From assembly GCA_035998445.1 (NCBI GenBank), contig DASYHQ010000018.1, positions 372,001 to 436,000 of the forward strand: a stretch of DNA of 64,000 bases. The letters are read 5' to 3'. This document shows positions 57,592 through 60,148 of this stretch, one piece after another. Positions within the stretch are counted from its first letter, which is position 1; each line of letters begins with the position of its first letter. Source of the DNA: Tepidisphaeraceae bacterium (GTDB lineage Bacteria > Planctomycetota > Phycisphaerae > Tepidisphaerales > Tepidisphaeraceae). The notes beneath the pieces were generated by a model. That model was not told the origin of the DNA. It did not search any database and was given only the letters and a program-made list of their open reading frames with translations. A program made the translations under genes and the position numbers.

Positions 57592-59610
57592 TTACTGCGC
57601 CACCGCCCGCTGGGCGGCCTCGTCCTTCGCCAGCTTCACGAAGTCCGCGATCGGCATCGCGCCCTTGTCGTCGCCCTTTCGGGTGCGGACGGCGACGGTG
57701 TTGGTGGTGGTTTCCTTGTCGCCGATGATGAGCATGTAGGGGACCTTCGCCATCGTGGCGGTGCGGATCTTGGAGCCGATCTTGTCGCTGGCGAGGTTGG
57801 ATTCGACGCGCAGGCCGGCGAGCTTCAGGTCGTCGGTGACCTTCTGGGCGTAGTCGTTGAACTTCTCGCTGATGCTTAACACGGCCACCTGCACCGGGGC
57901 GAGCCAGAGGGGGAAGGCGCCGGCGAAGTGTTCGGTGAGGACGCCGATGAAGCGTTCCATGGAGCCGAAGGGGGCGCGGTGGATCATGACGGGGACGTGC
58001 TTGGCGTTGTCGGCGCCGATGTAGGAGAGGTCGAAGCGTTGCGGCAGTTGGTAGTCGACCTGCACGGTGCCGAGCTGCCATTCGCGGCCGATGACGTCCT
58101 TGATGACGAAGTCGATCTTCGGGCCGTAGAACGCGGCCTCGCCGGGCTCCTTCGTGAACGGCACGCCGAGCGATTCGGCGGCGGCGATGCAGGCGGCTTC
58201 GGCGCGGTCCCACTGGCCGGCGTCGCCGACGTACTTGGCGCTGTCGGGGTCGCGCAGGCCGACGCGCACGCGGTAGTCGTTCATGCCGAGAGTGCCGAGG
58301 ACGATCTTCACCAGTTCGAGGCAGCCCTGCACTTCGGCGGCCACCTGGTCTTCGGTGACGAAGAGGTGGGCGTCGTCCTGGGTGAAGCCGCGCACGCGGG
58401 TCATGCCGCCGAGTTCGCCGGACTTTTCCCAGCGATAGACGGTGCCGAACTCGGCCAGGCGCACGGGTAGATCGCGATAGCTGCGCTGTTCGCTGGAGAA
58501 GATCTTGATGTGCATGGGGCAGTTCATCGGCTTGAGCAGGTAGCCGTCGATGTCGCCCTTCTCCATGCGGTTGGAGAGTTCGCCGCAGCCGCAGTTTTCC
58601 TTGGCGAGCATGTCGTAGAACTCGCGGTCGATGATCGGCGGGAACTGCGAATCGCGGTAGTACGGGAAGTGGCCGCTGGTCTTGTACAGTTCCAACCGGC
58701 CGATGTGCGGGGTGAAGACCTGGCTGTAGCCTTGGCGGCGAAGGTGTTCGCTGATGAAGTTCTGCAGTTCCTGGCGGACGACGGCGCCCTTGGGCTTCCA
58801 GAGGATCAGGCCCTGGCCGACGGTTTCATCGATGGTGTACAGGCCCAAGGCGGGGCCGAGCACGCGGTGGTCGCGCTTCTTGGCTTCTTCGAGCACGCGC
58901 AGATGTTCGTCGAGCTGCTTCTTGTCGAAGAAGGCGGTGCCGTAGATGCGGGTGAGCTGTTCGCGGTCGCTGTCGCCGCGCCAGTAAGCGCCGGCGACGC
59001 TCATCAGTTTGAACGACTTAATGCGGCCGGTGGACGGAAGGTGCGGCCCGCGACAGAGGTCGGTGAAGTCGCCCTGGCGGTAGATGCTGACGCTGGTCTC
59101 GCCGGCGCAGGCGAGTTCGTCGACGATCTCGTCCTTGAAGCGCTGCCCCTCGGCGTGCAGCAAGGTCTTGGCGGCGTCGGGGGTCACTTCCTCGCGGCTG
59201 AACTTCTCGTCGGCGGTGATGATCTTCTGCATCTCGGCCTCGATCTTCGGCAGATCGTCGGCGGAAATGCTGACGCCCTGCGGGAACTCGAAGTCGTAGA
59301 AGAAGCCGCTCTCGATGACCGGGCCGATCGTGTACTGCAGCTTGGCGCCGTACAGGTGGCGCAGGGCTTCAGCCAATACGTGGGCGGTGCTGTGACGCAT
59401 GACGAAGAGGCCGTCGGCATCGCGCTCGGTGATGATGGCGACCTTGGGGTTGCCCGTGAGCGGGTGCGAGAGGTCGACGAGCTTGCCGTCCACCTTGCCC
59501 ACGATGGCGGCTTGGGCGAGGCGCTTGCCGATGGATACGGCCAGCTGGTAGACGGTGGAGCCGTCGGGGAGTTCTTTGACTGAGCCGTCGGGAAGTTCGA
59601 TCTGGGCCAT
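57592..59610 (-). CDS. thrS: Threonine--tRNA ligase
   Basis: The protein has 672 residues from ATG 59610 (MAQIELPDGS). The TGS domain (1-60) is followed by the editing domain with HSTAHVLAEAL (H73, H77) and later CRGPHLPSTG. The class II catalytic core has motif 1, motif 2 (YRWEKSGELGGMTRVRGFTQDDAHLF) and motif 3 (HRAPFGSMERFIGVLTEHFAG). The zinc-binding Cys is in LKPMNCPMHI and zinc-binding His in DDAHLF and VPVMIHRAPFG. The anticodon-binding domain ends the protein. It charges tRNA-Thr and removes mischarged Ser. A Thr-rich leader and attenuator-like terminator precede it at 59740-59861. Confidence 0.97.
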   Translation of the reverse strand: MAQIELPDGSVKELPDGSTVYQLAVSIGKRLAQAAIVGKVDGKLVDLSHPLTGNPKVAIITERDADGLFVMRHSTAHVLAEALRHLYGAKLQYTIGPVIESGFFYDFEFPQGVSISADDLPKIEAEMQKIITADEKFSREEVTPDAAKTLLHAEGQRFKDEIVDELACAGETSVSIYRQGDFTDLCRGPHLPSTGRIKSFKLMSVAGAYWRGDSDREQLTRIYGTAFFDKKQLDEHLRVLEEAKKRDHRVLGPALGLYTIDETVGQGLILWKPKGAVVRQELQNFISEHLRRQGYSQVFTPHIGRLELYKTSGHFPYYRDSQFPPIIDREFYDMLAKENCGCGELSNRMEKGDIDGYLLKPMNCPMHIKIFSSEQRSYRDLPVRLAEFGTVYRWEKSGELGGMTRVRGFTQDDAHLFVTEDQVAAEVQGCLELVKIVLGTLGMNDYRVRVGLRDPDSAKYVGDAGQWDRAEAACIAAAESLGVPFTKEPGEAAFYGPKIDFVIKDVIGREWQLGTVQVDYQLPQRFDLSYIGADNAKHVPVMIHRAPFGSMERFIGVLTEHFAGAFPLWLAPVQVAVLSISEKFNDYAQKVTDDLKLAGLRVESNLASDKIGSKIRTATMAKVPYMLIIGDKETTTNTVAVRTRKGDDKGAMPIADFVKLAKDEAAQRAVAQ

Positions 59611-59739
59611 GTTCGGTGCCTCGTTGGGTCGGTCGTCGTACGGGTTCGGGCTTTCCAGGAAGACGGGCTCACTGAAGTGAGACCGCCGCGGGAAGGCCGG
59701 GGTCGGGTGCGTCGTCGTCACTCGAGCGACAAACGAAAA

Positions 59740-59761
59740 CCGCCCGGCTGAAACCGGGCGG
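59740..59761 (-). terminator. Intrinsic terminator in the thrS leader (attenuator)
   Basis: On the minus strand an 8-bp GC stem (ccgcccgg / ccgggcgg, 59754-59761 with 59740-59747) encloses a six-base loop and is followed by ttttcgttt. It lies about 130 bases before the thrS start and 34 bases after the leader ORF stop. Confidence 0.8.
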
Positions 59762-59806
59762 GCGTTGGCATCGAGAATGCATTCCACGACGCGATTCAAC
59801 GCCCGG
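59754..59806 (-). promoter_or_regulatory. Predicted antiterminator pairing in the thrS leader
   Basis: The end of the leader ORF (minus strand ccgggcg, 59800-59806) is complementary to the 5' arm of the terminator (cgcccgg, 59754-59760). It is in fact a copy of the terminator 3' arm. A partly overlapping alternative pairs cgggcgttg near the leader stop with caacgcccg (59759-59767). Pairing would prevent the terminator. A ribosome stalled on the Thr codons leaves 59800-59806 free, while one at the stop codon covers it. Confidence 0.65.
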
Positions 59807-59861
59807 CGAAGCCGCTGCGCGTGGTCGTGGTCGTCGTGAAACGCGAGTTTCGCACGTCCAC
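59796..59861 (-). CDS. Threonine-rich leader peptide of thrS (predicted)
   Basis: From GTG 59861 the frame has 21 codons and ends at TGA 59796-59798; GTG 59855 would give 19. The centre is six consecutive Thr codons at 59837-59820 (acg acg acc acg acc acg), read F-TTTTTT-RSGFAGR. The frame is not a known protein and is too short to be one. Its position upstream of thrS, the run of codons for the cognate amino acid and the downstream terminator make a regulatory leader the best reading. No ribosome binding site is visible; initiation may be leaderless or at a poor site. Confidence 0.65.
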   Translation of the reverse strand: MDVRNSRFTTTTTTRSGFAGR

Positions 59862-59862
59862 G

Positions 59863-59891
59863 ATGATAATGGCGAGGGTGGGGAGAATCAA
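59863..59891 (-). promoter_or_regulatory. Candidate promoter for the thrS leader
   Basis: On the minus strand TTGATT (59886-59891) and TATCAT (59863-59868) are 17 bases apart. A start near 59857 would place GTG 59855 almost at the 5' end, consistent with a leaderless leader peptide. Confidence 0.4.
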
Positions 59892-59933: not shown

Positions 59934-60148
59934 AAACAAAGCACCAATGACCAAATCCCAATCAGAGAATGGTCCTCTGTGTCTGCCTCTGTGTCTGCCT
60001 CTGTGCCCTCTGTGTCCTCTGTGGTTCAACTCTTCTTCGCGCCAACTTCGCGACTCCTTCGCGCTCTTCGCGTCTAACGCTTCTGCGTTGAATACGGGGG
60101 GAGATCGGGCGGAGAGACAGGCAGGAATGTCCGTCCTACAGAAGGCAC
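59934..60148. repeat. Repeat cluster: families B, F and E in a row
   Basis: A half of family B (caccaatgaccaaatccca) lies at 59949-59970. A family F run with three tctgcctctgtg-like words spans 59973-60073. A family E half (gagagacaggcaggaatg...) spans 60112-60148. The same F-then-E order occurs at 41505-41605. Confidence 0.75.

Follow-up and report, generated by a model that had tools for sequence, protein, structure and literature searches.

A putative threonine leader-peptide attenuator ahead of the threonyl-tRNA synthetase gene in Phycisphaerae

Introduction

How might a planctomycete match the synthesis of its threonyl-tRNA synthetase to the charging of tRNA-Thr? The control of thrS is established for the T-box of Firmicutes and for the translational autorepression exerted by ThrRS in E. 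coli. The window analysed here (the whole stretch of 64,000 nucleotides, part of contig C18 of a 5.84 Mb genome) carries thrS on its minus strand, and an earlier note had proposed that the gene is governed by ribosome-mediated attenuation through a short threonine-rich leader peptide, following the logic of trp, his and pheM. Taking together the elements seen in the sequence, the fact that other genera conserve them, the statistical excess of threonine runs and the predicted folding of the RNA, we consider it highly likely that the thrS leader is a ribosome-mediated transcription attenuator; the arrangement of threonine leader and terminator is real and conserved and, on these computational grounds, very probably functional.

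Results and Discussion

Organization of the thrS leader

The gene itself (57592-59610, minus strand, start ATG at 59610) was recognized by the TIGR00418 profile (E 5e-201) as the single copy above the family cut-off in a search of the genome, and its product contains the Pfam domains TGS, tRNA_SAD, tRNA-synt_2b and HGTP_anticodon. Following the minus strand towards thrS, one meets in order a promoter, a leader ORF with a run of Thr codons, the heptamer CCGGGCG, the leader stop, a terminator and the gene. The promoter was predicted by consensus scan from a -35 hexamer TTGATT (59886-59891) and a -10 hexamer TATCAT (59863-59868) with a spacer of 17, placing the transcription start at about 59856. 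The leader ORF (59796-59855; GTG start, 19 codons, MRNSRFTTTTTTRSGFAGR, stop TGA at 59798-59796) includes the putative sensor, six consecutive Thr codons ACG ACG ACC ACG ACC ACG (59820-59837), and ends on CCGGGCG (region 2, 59800-59806), the candidate antiterminator strand, which repeats the terminator 3' arm and is supported by the z-score of arm pairing and by folding. The terminator is made up of a 5' arm CCGCCCGG (region 3, 59754-59761; consensus scan, folding and direct reading), the loop TTTCAG and a 3' arm CCGGGCGG (region 4, 59740-59747), forming a hairpin of -18.5 kcal/mol, followed by the U tract TTTTCGTTTG (59730-59739; consensus scan and direct reading). Both the six Thr codons and the copied heptamer, with the terminator at 59740-59761, had been placed by the earlier note exactly where direct reading finds them. 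Between 59600 and 60000 the consensus scan returned a sole sigma-70-like promoter, that of the leader (0.0 expected from shuffles), and a sole terminator, that of the thrS leader (0.3 expected); by the same scan no promoter lies between the terminator and thrS. Further upstream, beyond the leader promoter, the window contains a short tandem repeat of GGCAGACACAGA (59961-60010) and an amino-acid permease gene (PF13520; 60696-62219, plus strand) transcribed away from thrS.

The leader had first been given as 19-21 codons. Its ORF and the stop at 59796 stand, and the promoter narrows the length: the 19-codon version from GTG 59855 appears likelier than the 21-codon version from GTG 59861, since the predicted transcription start at about 59856 falls one base before GTG 59855. 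Like those of most relatives, the window leader is thus probably translated from a leaderless mRNA. Most loci of the window type in families f1, f4 and f18, and also L181 (f21), have a -10-like hexamer (TATACT, TATAGT, TATATT, TATCAT and similar) whose end lies 5-10 nt ahead of the leader start; the background rate at start-like codons of the same regions is 7.5% at 4/6 matches and 3.5% at 5/6, a contrast somewhat inflated because the start codon was chosen partly by its -10 score.

These parts suggest the following sequence of events. Transcription would start at about 59856, so that the nascent RNA would begin with the leader GTG and a ribosome could therefore load at once. When charged Thr-tRNA is scarce the ribosome would stall on the Thr run with its leading edge upstream of 59806, leaving region 2 free to pair with the emerging 5' arm of the terminator, and RNA polymerase would read into thrS. 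When tRNA-Thr is charged the ribosome would reach the stop at 59798-59796 and cover region 2, the terminator at 59761-59740 would form and thrS would stay untranscribed. Since stalling would free transcription of thrS, more synthetase would be made as charging of tRNA-Thr falls.

Predicted folding of the leader RNA

If the ribosome is taken to cover about 12 nt beyond its A-site codon, region 2 of the window stays uncovered whichever of the six Thr codons the ribosome stalls on, and is hidden by a ribosome at the stop. The competition between the two pairings was then evaluated over 33 loci of families f1, f4, f15, f18 and f21 with a strong terminator (hairpin stronger than -12 kcal/mol, against -18.5 in the window) 26-48 nt past the leader stop, RNA being folded from the edge of the ribosome with the transcript ending either in the terminator loop or after the complete 3' arm. 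Pairing of region 2 with the terminator 5' arm is stronger than in dinucleotide shuffles (mean z -1.19 over the 33 loci; window z -3.0, p 0.01), the stretch exposed by stalling pairs better with its own arm than with those of other loci (p 0.005), the 5' arm is paired upstream with probability 0.75 when the ribosome sits on the first Thr codon versus 0.39 at the stop for transcripts ending in the loop (p 8e-7), and the probability of the terminator once the 3' arm is complete is 0.69 in the stalled state versus 0.96 at the stop (p 2e-6), all of these p-values being optimistic because many loci are related, L065 and L125 nearly identical among them. While the transcript ends in the loop, the state without a ribosome does not differ from the stalled state over all loci, which gives no clear sign of a 1:2 hairpin favouring termination without translation; in the window locus without a ribosome the terminator is favoured (0.98).

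Folding thus supports the proposed switch in the predicted direction across the 33 loci, and the stalling logic of the earlier note is upheld in its geometry; what does not carry over in full is the outcome in the window itself, where the modelled terminator remains slightly favoured even in the stalled state. When only half of the 3' arm has been transcribed, the 5' arm is paired with region 2 at 0.45-0.62 in the stalled states and at 0 with the ribosome at the stop. With the full 3' arm out, the terminator takes 0.75-0.84 of the stalled ensemble versus 1.0 at the stop, and the most stable antiterminator fold trails the terminator fold by 1.6-2.1 kcal/mol for early stalls (1.6 at the first Thr codon) and by 7.7 kcal/mol for a stall on the sixth. 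The window antiterminator alone is therefore, in these predictions, only nearly as stable as the terminator, and antitermination would have to be kinetic, depending on the order of co-transcriptional folding.

The weakness of the stalled-state antiterminator at equilibrium in the window is also what could be expected of a more general coupling, built from the same parts, in which any translating ribosome sets the level of read-through and the leader senses translation rate or ribosome supply. Such a device would give no reason for a Thr run to be conserved in many genera while its codons vary freely, nor for this run to occur only before thrS among the genes tested, and we consider it improbable.

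Threonine runs ahead of thrS

Across both strands of the complete 5.8 Mb genome, sequences of the type (ACN)6 give 24 overlapping matches, which fall at well over ten distinct sites, and some short repeats occur in the region upstream of the leader. It might therefore be asked whether the Thr run is no more than a low-complexity (ACN)n repeat, with the terminator belonging to an upstream transcription unit and no regulation of thrS involved. Given 24 such matches genome-wide, we estimate that one would fall by luck in the roughly 300 bases ahead of thrS, and on its strand, with a probability on the order of 1 in 1000 at most. The proposal of the earlier note would have been refuted had related genomes shown no Thr-rich ORF with a terminator ahead of thrS; this check was run and did not refute it. 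Among 119 thrS upstream regions, nearly all from Phycisphaerae, whose short ORFs were scored for Thr per 8 codons, at least five Thr were found on the sense strand of 38 loci (shuffles: mean 0.3, maximum 2), at least six in 25 and at least seven in 16 (shuffles 0 at both thresholds), with no antisense case at any of the three; 33 loci have the strong terminator described above. Amino acids other than Thr showed no similar excess in short ORFs of the same 119 regions. The runs of the relatives comprise 5 to 12 Thr, are accompanied by strong terminators and are conserved across genera, as illustrated by the leaders MNAKRFTTTTTTTTHCVGR (L017), MRQLLAAIMTTTTTTRARRVR (L028), MMLVTTTTTTTTTTTTRPPAIG (L177), MHRPTTTTTTTTATRHRG (L155) and MINNTTTTTTTITPGTTSG (L187 and L123, Phycisphaerales bacterium UBA7800).

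Codon use points in the same direction. In 23 runs examined ACG was used 65 times, ACC 63, ACT 15 and ACA 13, and none of the 23 was a repeat of a single codon, all having mixed codons. This mixing of all four codons means that the amino acid is kept rather than a DNA repeat, so that selection appears to act on the former. Runs that lie in frame within a short ORF, exclusively on the sense strand and at a constant position with respect to promoter and terminator in many genera are not what repeat DNA would leave behind, and that origin seems to us very improbable. Hardly more credible, even with the precedents of E. coli and Firmicutes, is a thrS controlled through a tRNA-Thr-like operator bound by ThrRS or through a T-box, with an incidental leader ORF: the thrS leader matched neither a T-box nor any other relevant Rfam family even at a permissive E-value, the scan of the region giving just two unrelated matches at chance level (E 0.17 and 0.96), and what is conserved is found at a terminator some 130 nt ahead of the thrS start codon and not at its ribosome-binding site.

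Distribution among relatives

Leader ORFs with a Thr run precede thrS in many genera of the Phycisphaerae. Counted by family at a threshold of at least 4 Thr in 8 codons (the f-number labels are anonymous), a Thr leader is present in 11 of 22 loci of the home family f1, in 12/26 of f4, in 9/13 of f10, in 4/11 of f18, to which L065 and L125 (Planctomycetes bacterium syqfu) are added, in both loci of f23 and the one of f24, in one of the four loci of f15 and in 1/20 of f21; none was seen among the few loci of f5, f7, f8, f14, f19 and f20. Presence within the class is thus patchy, as the figures for f1, f4 and f21 show. The terminator of f23, with a loop of 10, escaped the simple terminator finder and was seen on reading the sequences. 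Two loci of f1 are weak or incomplete cases, namely L009 (MQTSRTTIMVP, three Thr) and L026, the latter without a clear terminator.

Beyond the class, none of 37 loci from other planctomycete classes has a Thr leader before thrS, and no Thr leader with terminator was found in the Verrucomicrobiota outgroup, where the Thr-containing ORFs of L127, L129 and L137, which are without a terminator, were set aside.

A second architecture

Families f10 and f24 have no short terminator after the leader. Their U-tract 3' arm, mostly 30-100 nt before thrS, pairs with a distant 5' arm that adjoins or includes the leader start codon, and the Thr ORF is embedded in the 5' strand of a single long terminator hairpin of about 110-150 nt, which the simple terminator finder missed and reading of the sequences revealed (L192, L194-L199, L202, L203, L229, L346-L348, L350, L354, L357 and L358). 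The arms are, for instance, accggtacacgacag followed directly by ATG and ctgtcgtgtgccggtTTTC in L202, aacgactccgaATG and catttggagtcgttTTTT in L203, and ggccgtttcgcgaagccATG and atggctccgcgagacggcT in L354. When the 5' arm was located without reference to the leader, it ended between -8 and +10 nt of the leader ATG in 17 of 18 f10/f24 loci. The arms covary strongly: those of the same locus pair at a mean of -23.1 kcal/mol versus -13.0 when swapped between loci, none of 20000 permutations being as good. In predicted ensembles the long hairpin dominates (mean 0.98). The leaders are very short (MTRTTTTA, MFTTTTTTRC, MNTTTTTTTTC), and a ribosome stalled on them would itself hold the terminator open, no competing RNA hairpin being needed.

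It is therefore tempting to see one sensor that would be coupled to a terminator in two ways. We think it reasonably likely that the Phycisphaerae have a class-specific leader-peptide switch of thrS in two architectures: in the window a classical three-strand attenuator on an mRNA that is leaderless, and in f10 and f24 a single long hairpin with the ribosome as antiterminator. If true, the single-hairpin variant would be a minimal form of the switch, and its design deserves a study of its own. One of these loci, L195, has an inverted repeat directly before thrS (693-776 in the orientation of thrS); it is near-perfect, has arms of about 34 bp (GCATCCGACACTGAGTTTCTGAGATACTGAGAAG...) and resembles a small mobile or repeat element.

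Comparison with known attenuators

In the attenuators of the enterobacterial trp, his, thr, ilv and leu operons, a leader ORF rich in regulatory codons precedes a terminator, and a stalled ribosome frees a competing strand at the leader end. The thrS locus shares the regulatory-codon leader, the terminator and the competing strand in that position; it differs in its target, a tRNA synthetase gene, in its phylum, in having a leader with which the mRNA probably begins and in showing no clear 1:2 hairpin. Closer in its target is pheM-pheST of E. coli, where leader-peptide attenuation lets a tRNA synthetase gene sense its own tRNA: the thrS leader likewise precedes the synthetase gene for the sensed tRNA, with Thr in place of Phe, and we found no Phe leaders upstream of pheS in 14 Phycisphaerae genomes. 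The Thr_leader family of Rfam (thrABC) also combines a Thr-rich leader peptide with a terminator, as does the thrS locus, which nevertheless differs in its target and gives no Rfam match; no comparable Thr leader was found upstream of thrC in Phycisphaerae, where an ORF in L331 is only chance-like. On its testable features (leader, terminator and mutually exclusive strand), the window arrangement appears to belong with the ribosome-mediated leader-peptide attenuators, in keeping with the trp/his/pheM logic that the earlier note had applied to thrS.

Leader peptides ahead of tRNA synthetase genes have a precedent in Streptomyces, for which attenuators of the classical type have been predicted upstream of trpS and leuS (PMC1262725), and in S. 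lividans a leader thrL (MKRVRPFLETTPGFVPAR) was placed before the same gene as here (PMC8079986), in a species where several leader peptides are leaderless (PMC8079986). Unlike the leaders of Phycisphaerae, with their 5 to 12 Thr, strong terminators and occurrence in many genera, thrL contains just two Thr and lacks a clear terminator (PMC8079986), and it stands as a weak prior claim of a threonine leader of thrS. In a survey of 2010, the known leader peptides were confined to Proteobacteria and Actinobacteria, apart from the His case that the survey itself added from Firmicutes (PMC2965389). The statement of the earlier note that leader-peptide attenuation of thrS had not been described in planctomycetes agrees with the open-access literature, in which we found no report of a Thr-run leader before a planctomycete thrS, although comparative-genomics work on attenuation may list more thrS cases; taken for thrS at large, it has to be tempered by the S. 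lividans claim (PMC8079986).

What we describe is very probably a known kind of switch at a gene and in a phylum for which the open-access literature yielded no clear precedent. It would add the Planctomycetota to the phyla with amino-acid-specific leader-peptide attenuation, for which descriptions come mainly from Proteobacteria, Actinobacteria and some Firmicutes, and would give thrS a third route of tRNA sensing besides the T-box and ThrRS autorepression. It would also imply close coupling of transcription and translation in planctomycetes, where such coupling is debated owing to their elaborate cell plan, and the thrS leader offers a simple reporter of it.

Elsewhere in the same genome, a branched-chain leader-like ORF, MTTATALSERNLALTLPVVVR, lies before ilvB (L306:1176-1241; C18 near 569300), and after it comes a 13-bp hairpin that lacks a U tract. 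Leader-like ORFs rich in V or L likewise precede ilvB in L322, L323, L325, L362, L369, L370, L372 and L374.
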